From NCBI RefSeq assembly GCF_021353295.2, contig NZ_CP120635.1, positions 807,501 through 871,500 of the forward strand: a stretch of DNA of 64,000 nt, in the 5' to 3' direction. The notes below the pieces were generated by a model. It did no database searches and had not been told where the DNA came from. It was given only the letters and a program-made list of their open reading frames with translations. Position numbers and translations under genes: made by a program. Shown piece by piece: positions 6,658 through 63,618 of the stretch (position 1 is the stretch's first letter; each line of letters opens with the position of its first letter). The stretch comes from Pseudodesulfovibrio thermohalotolerans (GTDB lineage Bacteria > Desulfobacterota > Desulfovibrionia > Desulfovibrionales > Desulfovibrionaceae).

Positions 6658-9600
6658 TTACGCCTTGCGGACGTTGACCATGAAGGCCTTGGTTTCGGGG
6701 ATACCCGTGTTCGGGTCGCCTACGGACGGGGTCAGCAGGTTGGCGGAGTCGCCGCCATCCTTGGGCCAGGTCCAGCCGAAGTGCCAGGGCAGGCCCACCT
6801 GGTGGACGACAGTGCCCTGGACCGTGAACGGCTTGAGGCGGCTGGTCACGATGGCCTTGGCCCAGAGGGAGCCGCGCAGGGAATCAACCATGACCTTCTC
6901 GCCGTTCTTGATGCCGCGGAGTTCCGCCAGCTCGGGGCTCATCTCCACGAAGACCTGCGGCTCGGCCTCGACCAGCCAGGGCTGGTTGCGGGTCATAACG
7001 CCGGTCTGCCAGTGCTCGGTGACACGGTAGGTGGTGCCGATCAGGGGATACCTGGGATCGCACACGGCCTTTTCCTCGGTGTCGAAGGTGAGCGCCGTGG
7101 GGTTGTGCAGAGTGCTGGAGAACGGGTGCGACTTCACCGGGCATTCAAGCGGTTCGTAGTATTCCGGGAACGGACCGTCGGCCCGTCCGGGACCAAAGAG
7201 CTGCCCGAAGCCGTGCTTGCGCATGATGAAGGCGTACTTGGTGCCGGGAGCCCAGCCGCCGTCGGGCACGTCGCCCACCCACTTCTCGCCGTTCCAGGCG
7301 ATGACCGCCTTTTGCGGGTTCCAGGGCTTGCCCTTGAGGTCGACCGAGGCGCGGTTGTACAGCACGCGGCGGTTGACGGGCCAACACCAGGAGAAGTTCG
7401 GGTACAGGCCGATGTTGGCCTGTTCCGGAGTCTGGGTCAGGTCGCGCCGTGCGGCCATGTTGCCCTTGTCGGTGTAGGAGTGGCAGTACAGCCAGTTGCC
7501 CGAACAGGTGGAGCCGTCGTCCTGCAGGAAGGCGAAGCTCGGGACCTGTTGGCCCTTTTTGTACATCTTGCCCTTGATCTCCACGTCACGGGTGAAGTGG
7601 CCGTTGATCAGCTTGGCCGTCTTGTGGGGATCGAACACGCCCTTGGTGGCGATGGAGTCCCAAGTCAGACGGGTGATGGGTTCGGGATACGCGCCGCCTT
7701 CCTTCTCGTACAGGTGGCGGATTTCCGCCATCAGCTCGTACATGAGGTCGCCGTCGGGCTTCAGGCCGTTGGGCGCGTCGGGTCCCTTGTAGCGCCACTG
7801 CATCCAGCGGCCGGAGTTGGTGATGGAGCCTTCCTTTTCGATGGACACGGCGCAGGGCAGGAAGAATACCTCGGTCTTGACCTTGGTCGGGTCCATGCCG
7901 GGGCCTTCCCAGAACCAGCCGGTTTCGTTGGGGAAGATGTTCACGTTGACGAGCCAGTCGAGGTTGCCCATGGCGCGCCGGTTCTTTTCGGCGTTTGCGC
8001 CGGAGCAGGCCGGGTTCATGCCCCAGGCCAGCAAGCCCTTGAACTGGCCCTTTTCCATTTTGTCGAACAGGGTCAGCCAGGAATATTCCATGGCCGAGCC
8101 GGAATCGAGCCTGGGCAGGAACTGGTAGGCTGCCTCGGGGGTGTCGTCCTGCCACATGGCCTTGAGGAGCGACGCCGAGTATTTGGGGAAGTTGCCCCAC
8201 CAGTTGGCGGACTTGGGATCGTTGGAAACCGGGGTGTTGGCCTTGTTGTACGCTTCCAGGGAGGACTGGGCAGCCTTGGGGGTGCTCAGGTAGCCGGGAA
8301 GGATGTGGTACAGCAGGCAGTGGTCCGTGGACCCCTGGACGTTGGACTCGCCGCGCAGCGCGTTAACGCCGCCGCCGGCGATGCCGATGTTGCCCAGCAG
8401 AAGCTGGATCATGGCCATGGCGCGGATGTTCTGCACGCCCACGGTGTGCTGGGTCCAGCCCATGGCGTACATGATGGTTCCGGCCTTGTCGGCCGTGCCG
8501 GTGGCCGCGTAGGTCTCGTACAGCTTGACCAGGTTTTCCTTCTTCATGCCCGAGATGGAAACGACCTTGTCGAGATCGTAGCGCGCGTAGTGCTTCTTCA
8601 GGAGCTGGTACACGCAGTTGGGATCGGCCAGGGTCGGGTCCTTCTTGGGATTGCCGTCCGCGTCCATGGCGAAGGCCCAGGTGGACTTGTCATAGGAACG
8701 GGTGGACTTGTCGTAGCCCGAGAACATGCCGTCCTCGAACTTGAACTTGTCGCCCACGATGAAGGAAGCGTTGGTGTAGTTCACCACGTAATCCCGGAAG
8801 ATCAGGTCGTTGTCCAGGATGTACTTTATCATGCCGCCGAGCACGGCGATATCCGCGCCGGAGCGGATGCCCGCGTAGAAGTCGGCCTTGGCCGAGGTCC
8901 TGGTGAAACGGGGGTCGACGTGGATCAGGGTTGCGCCCTTTTCCTGCGCCTTGGTCACCCATTTGAAGGAAATGGGATGGTTTTCGGCAGCGTTGCTGCC
9001 CATTATGAGAACACAGGTGGAGTTCTGGATGTCGATCCAGTGGTTGGTCATCGCGCCGCGTCCGAACGACTCTGCCAGAGCCGCAACAGTCGCGCTGTGT
9101 CAGATACGCGCCTGGTGCTCCACATACACCAGGCCAAGGCTGCGGAGCATTGTCTGGTAAGCCCAGCACTCCTCGTTGTCCAATGCGGCGGAGCCCACGG
9201 AGGCAATGCCGTCGCAGCGATTGACCACCTGGCCCTTCGCGTTTTTCTCGGTCCAGGTCTTGTCGCGGGAATCCTTGATCCTTTTGGCGATGGTTTCCAG
9301 CGCCCAGGACAGGGAGACCTTCTTGAATTCCTTGGCGTAGGGAGCCCTGTAGAGGACGGAGTCGGGGCGACGGTCGTTCTCGGCCAACTGCCAAATGGAT
9401 GCGCCCTTGGCGCAAAGCGCGCCTTCGTTGATCGGGTGGTCGGGATCGCCCTCGACGTTGACGGCCCGCATGTCCTTGAGGGACGTGTTCACGACCAGGC
9501 CGCAACCCACTGCGCAGTAGCAGCAAACGGACGTGGTCTGTTTGCTCCATTTCGGATTCATGGCCGACACATGGTCCGGCAGCGTCGCCGCCGTGGCCTT

Positions 9601-9684
9601 GCAGCCGAATCCGAGCCCGCCGAACGCCGTGGCCGTGGCCGCGACAGCGGAGAGCTTGAGGAAGTTTCTACGATTGGTGTGCAT
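6658..9684 (-). CDS. fdhA: Formate dehydrogenase catalytic subunit, selenoprotein
   Basis: 1008 residues when the in-frame TGA at 9100-9102 is read as selenocysteine (residue 195). The Sec context is HQARI-Sec-HSATVAALAESFGRGAMTNHW, the signature of Sec formate dehydrogenases. The enzyme oxidises formate to CO2 at a Mo or W bis-guanine-dinucleotide cofactor. The N-terminus has the Tat motif RRNFLKLS and a hydrophobic stretch, so it is exported folded. A [4Fe-4S] site follows (CCYCAVGCG near residue 53). A gene finder will split it at the TGA into a 194-residue piece and a 797-residue piece starting at MTNHW; the split is artificial. It sits between fdhB and the small gene at 9709. Confidence 0.95.
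9064..9102 (-). promoter_or_regulatory. Sec UGA codon and SECIS hairpin in fdhA
   Basis: UGA is at 9102-9100 on the minus strand. A few bases later GCGACT can pair with AGTCGT, enclosing a second stem (TGC/GCA) topped by GGCTCTG. The G-rich apical loop resembles that of E. coli fdhF. Placement directly after the UGA fits a bacterial SECIS recognised by SelB. Confidence 0.8.
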
Positions 9685-9708
9685 TCTACCTCCTGTGTTG
9701 AATGCGGG

Positions 9709-56449: not shown

Positions 56450-57130
56450 TCAATCGTTGCGCGTGGCGTCGACAAGGCCGTCGTGGTCGATGATGCGGAT
56501 ATTTCGGCCGGAGGCCTCGATAAGCCGCCGGCGTTTGAATCGCTGGATGACGCGCGACAGGGTTTCCGGGGTTGTGCCGACGATCCTGGCCATCTCGGCG
56601 TGGGAGATGTGCAGGGTAAAGGGCTCGCCGGGCCGGGCGGCGCAACATCCTTCGGAGTGCCGGAGGAAACGGGCGATTCGCTTCTGCGTGCCGTGCAGGG
56701 CCAGGGATTCCACGAGGTTCATGGTTTCCAGCAGCCTGCCCGCCAGGGTTTGCATGATCTTGAGCAGCAGGAGGGGCTCGCGTCGGGCCAGGTCCTCCAT
56801 GTCTTCCGACGGGACGCTCGCCACGCGGCTCTTTTCGAGGGCGGTTACGTTCACGGGGTAGGGCTTGTCCGTAAAGGCCGTGCAGAAGCAGAACGGCTGA
56901 CCCGCCTCCACCAGGTAGAGGGTCTGCTCCTTGCCTTCCGGGGTGCCTCGGAAAATTTTGGCCCGCCCGGACAGGACGATGAAGAAGGCCTGGGTCTCGT
57001 CCGACTGGCTGATGATCCGTTCCCCGGGCTCGTAGACGTTTGTTTCGGCCCGGCTGGCCAACGCCCGGACCGCTTCGTCCTCAAGCCCCGCAAAAAGGGG
57101 AATTCGTCGCAATAACCGGAAGTTGTCCAT
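56450..57130 (-). CDS. Crp/Fnr-family regulator with FNR-type DNA recognition
   Basis: 226 residues. The ATG at 57130 gives MDNFRLLRRIPLF, the usual family start, and follows GGGAA; an ATG five codons earlier has no site. The cyclic-nucleotide-like barrel spans about 10-120. The recognition helix is GTTPETLSRVIQRFKRRRLIE. E, S and R sit as in E. coli FNR (E-x2-S-R), which reads TTGAT half-sites. It lacks the N-terminal Cys cluster of FNR; it has FCFC near 83 and CC near 165, so the signal sensed is uncertain. It is divergent from the cytochrome operon with one FNR box between them. Confidence 0.88.
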   Translation of the reverse strand: MDNFRLLRRIPLFAGLEDEAVRALASRAETNVYEPGERIISQSDETQAFFIVLSGRAKIFRGTPEGKEQTLYLVEAGQPFCFCTAFTDKPYPVNVTALEKSRVASVPSEDMEDLARREPLLLLKIMQTLAGRLLETMNLVESLALHGTQKRIARFLRHSEGCCAARPGEPFTLHISHAEMARIVGTTPETLSRVIQRFKRRRLIEASGRNIRIIDHDGLVDATRND

Positions 57131-57150
57131 GACTTTTTTTCCCATAAAAA

Positions 57151-57164
57151 TTGATCGCGATCAA
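57151..57164. promoter_or_regulatory. Perfect FNR box between regulator and cytochrome operon
   Basis: TTGAT-CGCG-ATCAA matches the FNR consensus fully. A -10 element TATGAT at 57187-57192 on the plus strand sets the start near 57199, which puts the box centre at -41.5. That is the exact class II activation position. The box also lies about 20 bases ahead of the regulator gene, so autoregulation is likely. Confidence 0.85.
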
Positions 57165-57192: not shown

Positions 57193-57241
57193 ATATGCGT
57201 GAATAGCTGTTAATGGTTTGGAATCTAAGGAGGTATCAATA

Positions 57242-58150
57242 ATGACAATTTCCCGCAGAGGATTTTTGGGAGCGTTGGGGGTCGCGGGGGCGGCCTCGGC
57301 GGCGCCCGGAAATGCGCAGGCGTGGCAATCCAAGGCGCCGCCCGATCCATATGGCTGCCTGGTGGATCTGACCCGCTGCGTTGGGTGCCGCAAGTGCGAG
57401 CAGGCGTGCAAGGAGGTCAACGACCTGCCCGAGCCCGCCGTGAAGTTCGACGATCTGACCGTGCTCGACGCCAAGAGGCGGCCGGACCAGAACGTTTTCA
57501 CCGTAATCAACCGCTATTACCCCGGGCGCATCGACGACCGCGACAAGCTGGCTCCGACCTTCGTGAAGGTGCAGTGTATGCACTGCCAGGACCCGGCCTG
57601 CGTTTCGGCCTGCATCACCGGGGCGTTGACCAAGAAGGACAACGGGGCCGTGCATTATGACGTCGATAAGTGCATAGGCTGCCGCTACTGCATGGCGGCC
57701 TGTCCCTTTGAAATCCCGGCCTATGAGTACGACAAGCCCATCATGCCCCGGGTGCGCAAGTGTACGTTCTGTTATGAGCGCATCTCCAAGGAGGGCGGCA
57801 AGCCCGGTTGCGCTTCCATATGCCCGGTGGAGGCGATCACCTTCGGCAGGCGTTCGGAACTGTTGCGCCTGGCGAAAAACCGCATCGAAAACGATCCCGG
57901 CAAGTACCTGAACCACATCTACGGAGAGCACGAGGTGGGAGGCACGAGCTGGCTGTACATCTCCAACGTGGACTTTGAGAAGGTCGGCTTCCAGAAGCTG
58001 CCGACGCGGCCCATGCCGCAGACCACGGAGACCATCCAAAGCTCGCTGTTCAGCTATTTGTGGTCCCCGCTGGCCCTGTTCGGGGTCCTCGGGGCGGTAA
58101 TGGGCGCGACTGCGCGCAAGGGAGACAAGGAGGGCGATCATGACGCATAA
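57242..58150 (+). CDS. Tat-exported ferredoxin-like subunit (HybA/DsrO type)
   Basis: 302 residues. The ATG follows AAGGAGG. The Tat motif SRRGFLG and an Ala-rich core give export in folded form. Four cluster motifs are seen: [11 protein letters not shown] near 47, CMHCQDPAC near 109, [13 protein letters not shown] near 142, and CTFCYERI with CASICPVEA near 170-190. A hydrophobic C-terminal span ([18 protein letters not shown]) anchors it in the membrane. It resembles HybA and related quinone-linked subunits and should carry electrons between the NrfD-like subunit and the cytochrome. It overlaps the next gene by 11 bases. Confidence 0.92.
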
Positions 58151-59303
58151 GCCGCAACCCGTGGACCGGCCCTTCTGGACGCCGGGCGTGCTGGTCATGC
58201 TGGTCCTGATGATCGGGGCGGGCCTGACCCTGGCGGTCCGCTACACCTACGGCCTGGCCGCCGTGACCAACCTGAACAACCACTACCCGTGGGGCATCTG
58301 GATCGGCCTGGACGTGGCCTCGGGCGTCGCCCTGGCCGCGGGCGGTTTCACCACCGCCTTTCTGGGGCACATCCTGGGCCGCCACTACTACGAGTCCGTG
58401 ACCCGGCCCGCTCTGCTGACCGCCGCGCTGGGCTATACCTTCGTGGCGTTGGCCGTGTTCTTCGATATTGGCCGCTCCTGGGCCATTTGGAAGCCGGTCT
58501 TCTTCCAGAACCACAACTCGGCCCTGTTCGAGGTGGCCATGTGCGTCATGGTTTACGTCTCCGTGCTGTGGATCGAGTTCATTCCGGTCCTGGCGGAGCG
58601 GCTGGGGAGCAGGATCAAGCTTCTGGCCGTCCTGAACCGACTTCTGGACAAGACCATGTGGGTCTTCATCATCCTTGGGGTGGTGTTGTCCTGTATGCAT
58701 CAGTCGAGCCTCGGCACCCTGTTGGTCATCGCGCCCACCAAGGTGTCGCCGCTATGGTACACGCCGTATCTGCCGCTGCTCTTCCTGACTTCGGCCTTTG
58801 CCGTGGGGTATCCCATGGTTATCGTGGAGACGACCATCGCCACCTCTTCGCTCAAGCTGGAGTCGGAGATGAACGTGCTCTCCCCGTTGTCCAGGATCAC
58901 CATCCTGCTGCTGGGCGTGTACATGTTCCTGAAGATCGGCGACCTGGTCGTGCGCGGCGCGTACACGACCCTGCTGGACGGCTCGGCCCAGAGCAACTCC
59001 TTCCTGGTGGAGGTGGCGCTCGGCGTTGTTCTGCCGTGGCTCATGCTGCTCTTCCCGGCGGTTCGCCGTTCGCGCAGGCTGCTTTTCACGGCAGCGCTGC
59101 TCATCGTGTCGGGCGTCATGCTCAATCGATTCAACGTGTTCGTGGTCTCCTTCAAGGCCCCGTATGCAAACTACCCGTACTATCCGGCCATCGGCGAGAT
59201 ACTCGTCACCGTCGGGGCCGTGGCCACGATCTTCTTCCTCTATCGTCTGATCGTGACCTGGTTCCCGGTGCTTTCCGCCCAACGACAGGAGGTGTCGCAA
59301 TGA
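58140..59303 (+). CDS. NrfD/HybB-like membrane subunit
   Basis: 387 residues with nine to ten hydrophobic spans. [29 protein letters not shown] near the start is the NrfD-family signature, and the C-terminal spans fit HybB. It exchanges electrons with menaquinol in the membrane. AAGGAGGGC precedes the ATG. Its stop overlaps the cytochrome ATG (ATGA). The gene order ferredoxin, NrfD, cytochrome is that of quinone-dependent periplasmic reductases. Confidence 0.92.
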
Positions 59304-61459
59304 TGAGGAAGATACTCGGATGGCTGGCCTTCGCCGTCGTGGCGGCGTTTCTGGCCGGGGCCGTCCCTTCCATGGCCGCCACGGCTCCGGGCGTGTCCGC
59401 CGAGCCCCCGGCCAAGTCCCGGAAGGACCAGACGCCCATGCCGGAAGGCTGGTCGCCCGTCGATCAGGTCAAGGCCGAAGCGGAAGCCCGCAAGCCATAT
59501 CAGTATGTGGAAAAGGTGCTCATGGAGGACCTGCCCCTGCGCCAGCAGCGGTTGCGCGAGTTGGGCATCGGCCCCAAGGACATCAAGCGCAGCTACGTGC
59601 TGCTGAACAGCCCGCTGGTGGAGACCTTCGGGCGCAAGTACGGCCCCGTGCGGTTCATGCACGCCAAGCATTCGGCCGCTCTCGACGGCGACTGCGCGTC
59701 CTGTCACCATTACCGGCCCGCCGATCCCGAGGCATCGGAGACCGTGGCCTGCCGCGCCTGCCATCAGGACGCGTTTTCGGAGAAGAATCCGGAGCGCATC
59801 GGGCTCAAGGCGGCCTACCACATGCAATGCATGAACTGCCATGAGGAGATGAAGCGCGGTCCGGTGAGCTGCGAGGGGTGCCACGCCAAGCGGAGCACGG
59901 ACCACAAGGAGCTGGTTAATCTCCCGGAGAATCCCACTCCGCAACAGGTGACCGGGGAATGCCTGCGCTGCCACGAGCAGGCGGGCGAGGACATGCTCGA
60001 CACGGCCCACTGGCTGTGGCGCGGCCCGTCCCCCTACACGGTGGAACACAGACGGAGCGTCATGTCCGGCAAGGGGACCACGACGCTCAACAACTTCTGA
60101 ATATCCCCCATCAGCAACGAGGCTCGTTGCACATCATGTCATGCGGGATACGGCTGGAAGGACTCCACCTTCGACTTCACCAACAAGAACAACATCGACT
60201 GTCTGGTCTGTCACGACACCACGGGCAGCTACAAGAAGGCCCCGCCCGCGGCGGGTATGCCCGACCCCAAGGTGGACATGCTCTACGTTGCGCAGCGCGT
60301 CGGCCCCACCAGCAGGAAGACCTGCGGAGCCTGCCACTTCAGCGGCGGCGGTGGCGATGCGGTAAAGCACGCCGACATGTCCGCCGAGCTGTACTGGCCG
60401 GACCGCAACTGTGATATCCACATGGGCGGGTACGACTTCTCCTGCGTGGAGTGTCACACGACCCGCAACCACAAGATATCGGGCCGGTCCACATCGGCTC
60501 CGGTGGCCGAGGGGTCCCGCGCCTGCGAGGACTGCCACACCACCAAGCCGCATTATGGCGAGACCCTGCTCGACCATCACCTGAACAAGCACTGCGAGGC
60601 CGTGGCGTGCAACACCTGCCATTCGCCCATCTACTCCAAGTGCGCCCCCACCAAGACGTGGTGGGACTGGTCCACCGCCGGCGACAAGAAGCGCGAAGTC
60701 GGCAAGGACAAGTACGGCAAGCCCGACTATGACTGGAAGAAGGGCGACTTCCGCTGGGGCGAGTCCGTCAAGCCCGAGTACGCCTGGTACAACGGGTTCA
60801 TGAAGCGGCTGCTGCTCGGTGACGCCATCAATCCCGAGGCCAGAGGCTTCAATCCCGGCGAGCGGCTGACCGCCGCCGAGAAGGACGGGCTGGTGAAGAC
60901 CAACATCACCGAGCCCATCGGTTCCATCAAGGACCCGCATTCGCGGATCACGCCGTTCAAGATCATGTCCGGCATCCAGCCCGCCGACGCCAAGAATCGG
61001 TATCTGCTCCTCCCGCATCTGTATCCGTACGGCAAGGAGGACAAGACCGCCTACTGGAAGGGCGCGGACTGGCAGGCCGCCTTCAAGGAAGGCATGGAAA
61101 AGGCCAAGCTTCCGTACAGCGGCGAGTACATATGGGTGGCAACGGAGATGTACTGGCGCATCGAGCACGAGGTCATGCCCAAGGAACACGCGCTCTCCTG
61201 CGTTCAGTGCCACGACAGCCTCAAGGGCGAGAAGACCTGTGACCGCTGCCATCAGGACACCCGCGACGTGAAGTTCCGGGAACTGACGGAAAAGGGCGCG
61301 GACTTCGAGCTGCTGCGGATGATGGGCCGCGACGTGGGCGATCTGATCGGCAAGACCGATTACATCGACTTCAAGAAGCTCGGCTACAAGGGCGACCCGA
61401 TCCTCTACGGCGGCCGGTTCAGCCAGTTGCCGCTCGGACAGGGACCCGCCAAGGACTAG
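59300..61459 (+). CDS. Thirteen-haem c-type cytochrome, OTR family, probable selenoprotein
   Basis: 719 residues if the in-frame TGA at 60098-60100 is Sec (residue 267). The signal peptide ends near SMAAT (residue 27). CxxCH motifs start at residues 132, 151, 177, 191, 221, 277, 301, 342, 382, 409, 437, 634 and 647: thirteen haems. The first four resemble cytochrome c3 (HAKHSAALDGDCASCHH). From 221 on it matches octahaem tetrathionate-reductase-family proteins (CTSCHAGYGWKD, CLVCHDTTGSYKK, VGPTSRKTCGACHFSGGGGD). Sec lies 10 residues before the 277 haem, in LNNF-Sec-ISPISNEARC. Family members reduce sulfur or nitrogen oxyanions; this substrate is unknown. Reading the TGA as a stop would give a 266-residue five-haem protein and orphan the rest. 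Confidence 0.85.
60098..60130 (+). promoter_or_regulatory. Candidate Sec UGA and SECIS hairpin in the cytochrome gene
   Basis: TGA at 60098-60100. After 13 bases a perfect stem GCAACGA/TCGTTGC (60114-60120 with 60124-60130) closes a loop GGC. The loop starts with G and is 20 bases from the UGA, inside the range usual for bacterial SECIS. The reading frame stays open through the hairpin and codes for conserved residues. Confidence 0.8.
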
Positions 61460-61483: not shown

Positions 61484-61516
61484 AAGGCCCGGAGTCGTTG
61501 GACTCCGGGCCTTTTT
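61484..61516. terminator. Terminator of the cytochrome operon
   Basis: AAGGCCCGGAGTC-GTTG-GACTCCGGGCCTT, 13-bp stem followed by T5, 24 bases past the cytochrome stop. The leading AA also serves the convergent gene weakly. Confidence 0.88.
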
Positions 61517-61548: not shown

Positions 61549-63618
61549 TCAGGCCTGGATGCCGTAGCGGTCCATTTTGGCGTACAGGGTGTTGCGGCCG
61601 ATGCCCAGGGCCTTGGCCGTCTTGCTGATGTTGCCCTGGTGGAAGTCCAGGGCCTCCCGGATGGCGTTGGCCTCGCGGTGCTTGAGGAGGAATCCCTTGT
61701 CCCGGGAACGGTCGCCGGAGCCGATGGCCCTGCCGCCCGCTTTCTCCTGGATGTAGTGGGGCAGATGCTCGGGCAGGAGCAGGTCGCCGGACAGGTTGTT
61801 GGCCGCGTACTCCAGGCAGTTGACGAGCTCGCGCACATTGCCGGGCCAGTCGTGGGCCTTGAGCAGTTCCCCGGCCTCGGGGGATATGGCCGGGCAGGGG
61901 ATGCCGAAGGCGTCGCACAGCCGGTTGAGATGGTGCTCGGCCAGCAGGGAGATATCGTTGCCGCGTTCCCTGAGCGGGGGGATGGCGATGGTCACGACGT
62001 TGAGCCGGTAGTAGAGGTCCTCGCGGAAGAGGCCCCGGTCCACCAGGTCTCGCAGGTTCTTGTTGGTGGCCGCCAGTATCTTCACGTCCACGGGCAGGGG
62101 GCTGGTGCCGCCCACCGGGACCACGGCCCGTTCCTCAAGGGCGCGGAGCAGGTTGACCTGCTGGGACAGGGGCATCTCGGATATTTCGTCGAGAAAGAGC
62201 ACGCCCTTGTCCGCCTTCTGGAATTTGCCGACCCGGCCTCGCTTGGCCGCGCCGGTGAAGGCCCCTTCCCGGTAGCCGAACAGTTCGCTCTGGACCAGTT
62301 CCTCGGTGAACGCGCCGCAGTTCACGGCAACGAAGGGCTGCTTGGCGCGGGGACCGGCCTGGTGAATGCCTTTGGCGAAGAGTTCCTTGCCGGTGCCGGA
62401 TTCGCCGGTGAGCAGCACGGTGGACGGGGTGCGGGCGGCATTGGCCGCCCGGCGGATGGCCTGGCGCATGGCCGTGCCTTCGTGAAGCACGTGTTCGAAC
62501 CCCGCGACCTCCTCGGGTTCCGCCTGCTTCCGCGACGCGGTGCGCGGCCCGGCCGTGAACTGCCGTGCGCGCTGGGTCTCGCTGACCGTGACGATGGTGT
62601 CGAGCCACGCGCCGCTCGCGCTGAAGGTCGGCATGACCCGGATGTACAGGCTGGAGTTCACCAGGCATTTGACGATGACCGGCTCGCACAGGGACGCGTT
62701 CTTGGCCTTGGCGAGATACGGGGCCATGTCGAAGAAATCCTCGGCCTTGCGGCCGCGCAGGGCGTCGCCGGAACGGTTCAGCAACAGCTCGGCGGTATTG
62801 TTCGCGCTGGTGATCCGGCCGGATTTGTTCAGGAACAGCACGCCGGTCATGACCGAGTTGAACATGGAGGAGAACAGGGAGGCCATCTGGCCTTCCAGCT
62901 CGGAGCAGTACAGGCGGCTCAGGTTCTGTTCCAGGGCCCTGGCGGCGTGGAGCACAAGGTCCATGGCCTCGGAATGGTCGGCCGAGATCGGGCCGGAAAT
63001 GTCGAAGCAGCCCCAGACGTTGCCCCGGGGGTCCAGGATGGGCGCGGCAGTGCAGTTCCACCTGTGGTGGCTCTCGCAGAAATGCTCCGCGCCGAAGACC
63101 TGCATGGGCCGTCCCGTGGCCAGGGCCGTGCCGATGGCGTTGGTGCCCACGCACGATTCCGACCAGTTCGCGCCGGGACCGAAATTGAGCCGGTCCGCTT
63201 CGCGCAGGACGGACAGGTCGCCGCAGGTTCGAGCCACGCGGGCGTCGGCGTTGGCGATGGTCATGAGCAGCCCCTTGCCCTTGATGAGGTCGTAGGCCGT
63301 GCTCTCGATCTCGCCGCAGATTTTTTCCAGGGTGACGGTGAACTGTTCGAGCTGGGTCATGGGGAGGAAGTCCCAGCAACTGCGGGGGGCCGGATCAACC
63401 GCCATGTCCTTGCATCGCCGCCAGGAATCCAGCAGGGACTGGTCCACGTTTCTGGCCTTCATCCTCTTGCCTTCCACGAACTGCTTCCAGTTCGAATAGT
63501 CGACTTGTGCGTCGCGTTGCTTGTGGGAGCGGGGCACGGGAAGCGGCGCACGCTCCTCTGGTTCGTGCGGGTCCCGCCGTATTTCGAAACCGTTTCCATC
63601 TCTGAGGAGCAGGTGCAT
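61549..63618 (-). CDS. AcoR-type sigma-54 activator (GAF-PAS-AAA-Fis)
   Basis: 689 residues from an ATG with GGAGGT 7 bases upstream. An N-terminal GAF-type sensor (about 90-240) has SESCVGTNAIGTALATGRPMQVFGAEHF, diagnostic of AcoR-like regulators. A PAS-like part follows, then AAA+ with GESGTGKE, REGAFTGA and GVLFLDEIS. The C-terminal Fis helix-turn-helix is GNISKTAKALGIGRNTLYAKM. AcoR proteins switch on acetoin or related 2-oxoacid dehydrogenase genes. The divergent gene encodes a lipoyl-domain protein behind a perfect sigma-54 promoter, which fits that role. Confidence 0.92.
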   Translation of the reverse strand: MHLLLRDGNGFEIRRDPHEPEERAPLPVPRSHKQRDAQVDYSNWKQFVEGKRMKARNVDQSLLDSWRRCKDMAVDPAPRSCWDFLPMTQLEQFTVTLEKICGEIESTAYDLIKGKGLLMTIANADARVARTCGDLSVLREADRLNFGPGANWSESCVGTNAIGTALATGRPMQVFGAEHFCESHHRWNCTAAPILDPRGNVWGCFDISGPISADHSEAMDLVLHAARALEQNLSRLYCSELEGQMASLFSSMFNSVMTGVLFLNKSGRITSANNTAELLLNRSGDALRGRKAEDFFDMAPYLAKAKNASLCEPVIVKCLVNSSLYIRVMPTFSASGAWLDTIVTVSETQRARQFTAGPRTASRKQAEPEEVAGFEHVLHEGTAMRQAIRRAANAARTPSTVLLTGESGTGKELFAKGIHQAGPRAKQPFVAVNCGAFTEELVQSELFGYREGAFTGAAKRGRVGKFQKADKGVLFLDEISEMPLSQQVNLLRALEERAVVPVGGTSPLPVDVKILAATNKNLRDLVDRGLFREDLYYRLNVVTIAIPPLRERGNDISLLAEHHLNRLCDAFGIPCPAISPEAGELLKAHDWPGNVRELVNCLEYAANNLSGDLLLPEHLPHYIQEKAGGRAIGSGDRSRDKGFLLKHREANAIREALDFHQGNISKTAKALGIGRNTLYAKMDRYGIQA

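Follow-up and report, generated by a model that had tools for sequence, protein, structure and literature searches.

A predicted selenocysteine ahead of the likely catalytic haem of an OTR-family multihaem cytochrome, with hairpins that overlap a haem motif

In Pseudodesulfovibrio thermohalotolerans, the gene of a multihaem cytochrome of the OTR family is broken by one in-frame UGA, codon 267, which is very likely read as selenocysteine (Sec). Comparison of homologous sequences strongly supports this predicted reading. By analogy with related enzymes, and with moderate confidence, Sec267 is probably a reactive residue at haem II, the likely catalytic haem of a predicted periplasmic cytochrome of the tetrathionate-reductase type. 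The gene lies in a stretch of 64,000 nucleotides, called the window here, from a source genome that is one contig of 3.89 Mb. The features discussed below are collected in Table 1.

Table 1. Features of the window, with positions counted from its first letter
Feature	Position	Strand	Remarks
UGA inside fdnG (formate dehydrogenase-N alpha), a known kind of Sec gene	9100..9102	-	TIGR01553
Crp-family regulator, divergent, beside the palindrome	56450-57145	-	
FNR-like palindrome TTGATCGCGATCAA ahead of the operon	57151..57164	+	1 match in window, 0.03 expected
HmcB/HybA-like 4Fe-4S subunit	57218..58150	+	HmcB model 354/420 (below cut-off), HybA model 266/263 (above)
HmcC/HybB-like NrfD-family membrane subunit	58140..59303	+	PF03916, 75 bits
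Cytochrome gene with in-frame UGA	59300..61459	+	c3-type domain about 115-200, OTR domain 201-640, 13 CXXCH
UGA, codon 267, predicted Sec	60098..60100	+	Aligned with Cys64 of Shewanella OTR
Predicted SECIS hairpin, type A, GCAACGA-GGC-TCGTTGC	60114..60130	+	7/7 pairs; loop 60121-60123
CTSCH, residues 277-281, haem II, second haem motif of the OTR domain	60128..60142	+	First codon closes the hairpin
K356, opposite Lys153 of Shewanella OTR	60365..60367	+	Alignment
Terminator-like hairpin past the full-length stop	61484..61513	+	13 pairs, then T-rich tail
GAF/PAS sigma-54 activator gene	61549-63618	-	Faces the operon

The first-pass annotation, made from the letters of the DNA, had described a single UGA in an otherwise continuous frame of 2160 bases. 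This is what is found: the frame has 720 codons, and the UGA, at codon 267, is its sole internal stop. The same annotation had assigned both sides of the UGA to one OTR-family protein, and the TIGR04315 model of that family agrees. When Sec is read through, residues 201-640 match with 488 bits against a cut-off of 375, and the open reading frame 3' of the UGA reaches 349 bits by itself. The 13 predicted CXXCH motifs comprise four in the c3-type domain, eight in the OTR domain and one beyond it, at residue 647. Membership of the OTR family is indicated both by the eight motifs within 201-640 and by K356, which aligns with Lys153 of the Shewanella enzyme, a residue that we take to be the ligand of its active haem. 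U267 falls opposite C64 of the Shewanella OTR structure 1SP3, ten residues ahead of the haem II motif in the alignment, and the earlier statement that Shewanella OTR has Cys there (NNFC) was correct. The terminator-like hairpin past the full-length stop comes from a scan that overall found six sites against 4.7 expected, which is no excess.

The bases after the UGA had also been described as a perfect 7-bp hairpin at the distance expected of bacterial SECIS elements, and this description holds. All seven pairs form, and the loop lies 20 nt past the UGA. The bacterial SECIS model, as drawn in Fig. 2 of a recent review (PMC13188914), has a loop of 3-9 nt with G in the first two loop positions, a stem of 4-16 bp, a distance of 16-37 nt from the UGA and a minimum free energy of at most -7.5. 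With its GGC loop, 7 bp, 20 nt and energies of -7.5 (bare) and -9.0 (flanked), the hairpin lies within every constraint given in that figure. Of 200 shuffles, 2 were as low in energy as the bare 17-mer and none as low as the hairpin with two flanking bases on each side; when the context is 42 nt the energy is again -9.0, with 14 of 200 shuffles as low (z -1.6). Within the 3.89-Mb genome the hairpin is unique, even with 2 mismatches allowed. Searched against Rfam with E up to 5, the gene gave two matches, both under their gathering scores; RF00031 had no match in the source genome and likewise none in 14 control genomes.

The codon-267 column was read in 202 distinct loci, with UGA in 70, Cys in 131 and Thr in 1. 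Copies of the window (L146, L257), matches below 250 bits, identical protein rows and one short match, L077, were left out of this count; L077 is itself a UGA locus with the hairpin. A phylum sample of 395 genomes gave 93 with a match at E 1e-20 and 69 over the family cut-off, and 110 of its 122 rows were read, the remaining 12 all being under the cut-off. Of the 78 rows that exceed the cut-off, 31 (one of them the window) show UGA, 46 Cys and one Thr; of the 32 weaker rows read, 23 show Cys and 9 something else. A further set of 80 loci divides into 30 with UGA and 50 with Cys, and 50 loci read from the family search into 12 and 38. Named strains among the UGA loci include Desulfocicer vacuolatum DSM 3385 and Desulfosarcina cetonica JCM 12296. 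The best 120 of 3979 database proteins, a set skewed toward unbroken genes, have Cys in 107, Leu in 8, Ala in 1 and Thr in 1, and the other three begin downstream of the column. Residue 267 had been proposed as a check on the Sec reading, which Cys or UGA columns would support and varied residues would not. The outcome supports that reading, with UGA or Cys in 201 of the 202 distinct loci, but 10 of the 117 covered database proteins (best 120 of 3979) have Leu, Ala or Thr, so that a thiol or selenol seems dispensable in some members of the family. Nine of these ten proteins retain the lysine opposite K356 (the tenth has Arg), as do 106 of the 107 Cys-type database proteins. The ten (P0108, P0110, P0111, P0113-P0115, P0117, P0118, P0120 and P0121) are all c3-fused OTR-type proteins in which the glycine-rich loop preceding the lysine is altered, and they perhaps carry out another chemistry.

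If the UGA were a true stop, a sequencing error or the mark of a decaying gene, the downstream frame would be left untranslated or would encode a separate protein. An ATG open reading frame of 400 codons does begin at 60257, and three of the database proteins begin downstream of the column. However, the sequence immediately before 60257 has no Shine-Dalgarno-like site, and purifying selection acts on the frame downstream of the UGA, with dN/dS of 0.225, 0.244 and 0.135 in comparisons with three UGA congeners. A stop, which we regard as highly improbable, is also hard to reconcile with 70 distinct loci that share the UGA codon and have a frozen hairpin after it (see below). Equally improbable is that a suppressor tRNA or a change in the code makes the UGA stand for another amino acid, Trp or Cys. 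Cys is indeed the alternative residue in relatives, but Trp was met at the column in none of the loci and in none of the database proteins listed (best 120 of 3979), and plain suppression would have no need of a hairpin that obeys SelB-type rules. The genome holds tRNA-Sec and all the sel genes.

These Sec genes of the source genome all score over their cut-offs: selA with 612 bits, selB with 380, tRNA-Sec with 79.6 and selD with 329. The genome had also been said to use Sec in fdhA, and a gene of this kind is present in the window: fdnG (6664-9705, minus strand) is split by a TGA, with TIGR01553 matching at 225 bits before it and at 1239 bits after it. An 8-bp hairpin lies 23 nt on from this UGA, and its loop, GGC, is the same as that of the cytochrome hairpin. 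The selD gene of the same genome (L258, C1:193829-194758) also has one in-frame UGA; a stem scan gave a candidate 7-bp stem with loop GGA 20 nt from it, and the best fold is a different one. The presence of SelB was tried as a discriminator between UGA and Cys-only genomes and rejected. SelB occurs in 66 of 69 genomes of the phylum sample (28 of the 30 with UGA, 38 of the 39 with Cys only), and the two UGA genomes without a SelB match are both fragmented assemblies. In a separate set of 10 genomes with Cys-type loci, SelB was over the cut-off in four.

A perfect 7-bp hairpin follows the UGA at a fixed distance in all 70 UGA loci, in one of two registers. Type A, the form found in the window and in 42 other loci, occupies bases 17-33 counting from the U of UGA, and type B (27 loci), with the sequence CTGGTGC-AGGT-GCACCAG, occupies bases 21-38. 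Among the 131 Cys loci, 7/7 pairs occur once in register A and never in register B. The type A loop is GGC in 41 loci and GTC in two, the type B loop AGGT in 24 and AGTT in three, variation that fits the G followed by G or U of the published SECIS model as given in its figure (PMC13188914, Fig. 2). When the 55 nt starting at the UGA are folded, the hairpin is missing from the best structure in 5 of 43 type A loci and in none of the 27 type B loci.

The codons of the hairpin are short of synonymous variation. Of 134 columns testable in type A loci, all vary synonymously except the six that make up the hairpin; for example, Ser is AGC in 42/42, Ala GCT in 41/41 and Arg CGT in 43/43. In type B loci, +8 and +11 are fully frozen among 124 columns, and +6, +10 and +12 are low in synonymous variation. 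None of 127 columns is frozen in the Cys loci. Covariation in the stem is thin, since type A is identical in 43/43 loci and type B has one double change and two G-U pairs among 27, and codon freezing is the stronger test of the two. A Cys gene of the same genus (L239) is about 80% identical over the OTR domain and keeps the residues SNEAR. Its Ala-Arg is encoded by GCC CGC, and the 21-base hairpin weakens from -9.0 to -4.0 kcal/mol; here the hairpin was lost through synonymous changes. In type A the last hairpin codon is that of C277, the first Cys of haem II, and in type B the hairpin spans the codons of Cys-Thr-Ser in CTSCH. Since the first haem II Cys is encoded within the hairpin, the RNA signal and the haem motif constrain one another. 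The residue at +8 differs with the class of locus: in one alignment it is Pro in 69 of 93 Cys loci and, among 32 type A loci, Ala in 30 and Ser in two, while in type B loci it is Cys in 27/27 (one type B locus being also counted as type A in that alignment).

The distribution of UGA and Cys over the family does not follow a single split. A FastTree phylogeny of the 202 OTR domains with the column masked, which has long branches, requires at least eight Sec/Cys changes, and a quick IQ-TREE run on 69 rows gives seven. Sec and Cys have thus been exchanged at least about seven times, in counts of change that do not separate gain from loss. A single clade of all Sec loci is rejected (AU p 0.0026), as is type A as one clade (AU p 0.00025); for type B the rejection is weak (AU p 0.031). 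As type A does not pass as a single clade, branches about 42% identical in protein share the same 17-base hairpin. Repeated gain of Sec and an old Sec with many losses are both compatible with the tree. In two Cys genes that lie inside Sec-rich clades, L239 and L236, position +8 holds Ala and not the Pro of most Cys enzymes, and this Ala looks like a scar of reversion from Sec. The closest Cys proteins in the database (P0002-P0008 of the best 120 of 3979) have Lys, Ser or Ala at +8. Two genus-mates, G529 (L242, L241) and G556 (L245, L244), have two OTR genes each, one per branch, and all four genes have the UGA and a type A hairpin.

The cytochrome gene is the last of a three-gene cluster on the plus strand, after the genes of a 4Fe-4S protein and an NrfD-family membrane protein, and its start overlaps the end of the NrfD-family gene. 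For the HmcB/HybA-like gene, ATG 57242 is the likely start as judged from the sequence. The Fe-S and NrfD subunits are related to those of the Hmc complex of Desulfovibrio, and the c3 domain resembles the end of HmcA. However, the cytochrome here is of the OTR type, and membership of Hmc was rejected, as the HmcA (64/400), HmcB (354/420) and HmcC (279/550) models all score below their cut-offs. The NrfD-family subunit is also below the cut-off of the hydrogenase cytochrome b model (334/450). An HmcC-like gene is found upstream in 25 of the 28 UGA loci listed, and in the other three the contig starts near the cytochrome gene. Two stand-alone UGA OTR genes of the other branch (L262, L263) have instead a cytochrome b561-family gene directly downstream. 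The FNR-like palindrome was sought in one relative, L047, and not found there. In 17 of the 28 UGA loci listed, the cytochrome gene has a match to the sigma-54 activator upstream of it, at 30-43% identity.

The haem-selenol active site suggested by the first-pass annotation is inferred from the alignment with OTR and from the OTR papers. In those papers the catalytic haem of OTR is haem II, numbered by motif order (PMC4484225), a lysine that lies outside the motif serves as ligand of the active haem (PMC12285233), and tetrathionate, nitrite and hydroxylamine are substrates of OTR-type enzymes (PMC6449678, PMC4484225). For TsdA, a thiosulfate dehydrogenase/tetrathionate reductase, it has been proposed that the active-site Cys attacks tetrathionate to give an S-thiosulfonate intermediate (PMC5146829). 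Since haem II is catalytic in OTR, OTR reduces tetrathionate and this chemistry is proposed for the TsdA Cys, we propose that Sec267 may act alike at haem II. SelB and Sec-tRNA, whose genes are present, would bind the hairpin and decode the UGA, placing Sec where the alignment has the conserved Cys of Shewanella OTR. Gene order and domains suggest a probable path for electrons, in which the NrfD-like and HmcB/HybA-like subunits, together with the four-haem c3 domain, would connect the quinone pool with the OTR haems. By analogy with the route suggested for the TsdA active-site Cys, the selenolate would then attack a sulfur-sulfur bond, that of tetrathionate or of a related sulfur compound, and electrons from haem II would free it from the resulting Se-S adduct.

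The residue might instead be non-nucleophilic, tuning or protecting the active-site haem, for example by reversible oxidation or as a weak ligand, with haem II alone catalysing, as in nitrite reduction. OTR-type enzymes also act on nitrite and hydroxylamine (PMC6449678, PMC4484225), whose reduction calls for no thiol step, and such a role would also suit the existence of the Leu/Ala/Thr group, in which the lysine is mostly kept. However, a Sec that is repeated and selectively maintained at exactly one column suits a reactive better than a passive residue, and tetrathionate is also among the substrates reported for an OTR-type enzyme (PMC6449678). The passive role is plausible but less likely than the reactive one. 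Returning to the reactive Sec267, we tentatively offer a fuller reading, for which the chances seem to us slightly short of even. The protein would be a haem-selenolate enzyme with Sec267 at the open face of a lysine-ligated haem II and with an Se-S intermediate. Its site would have been swapped between Sec and Cys many times, the same two SECIS hairpins being repeatedly carved from haem-motif codons at the cost of the +8 Pro, and the family would form a natural series of Sec, Cys and reverted-Cys enzymes.

Several known systems bear on these proposals. One is the OTR of Shewanella oneidensis (1SP3), which aligns over 201-639 with 390 bits and matches in the haem II motif, Lys153 and Cys64. 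The present protein differs from it in having UGA in place of Cys64, an added N-terminal c3-type domain, the CXXCH at 647 and two genes for a membrane complex. TsdA serves as a working analogy, in which an active-site chalcogen at a c-type haem attacks tetrathionate (PMC5146829, PMC4423706). However, TsdA is a dihaem protein of another family that has Cys as a haem ligand and is without Sec (PMC5146829). ExtKL of Geobacter is likewise described as a multihaem c-type cytochrome with a predicted Sec, but it belongs to a different family and has five haems (PMC5877670). Its model, NF040886, is not among the six NCBIfam families that match the cytochrome at E 0.001.

Sec in this protein family is already known: a review of May 2026 includes TIGR04315 among selenoproteins as 'GenBank annotated', with one example (WP_331457571.1), and its entry for the family gives neither a motif nor the site (PMC13188914). 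In an open-access literature search that covered papers in part, this review was the only source that tied Sec to TIGR04315, and nothing was met that described where the Sec sits, the pair of hairpins, the series of exchanges or the fusion with c3. To the entry in the review, the present work adds the site at Cys64, 70 UGA loci with two kinds of hairpin, the exchange with Cys and a c3-fused form in an operon. What is new is thus the Sec site, the two hairpins overlapping the haem motif and the exchange series.

The family offers a codon-by-codon case of one RNA signal and one haem motif sharing the same bases. Respiratory enzymes of this kind may also be split by gene callers, as three of the best 120 database relatives start just past the column. 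Sec is known at molybdenum, nickel, flavin-linked and thiol centres, and we know of no characterised enzyme in which it is catalytically paired with a c-type haem. If the proposal is true, a Sec that acts against a c-type haem would make a new pairing, one that can be tested directly because natural Sec, Cys and reverted-Cys forms occur in close relatives, some of them named strains.
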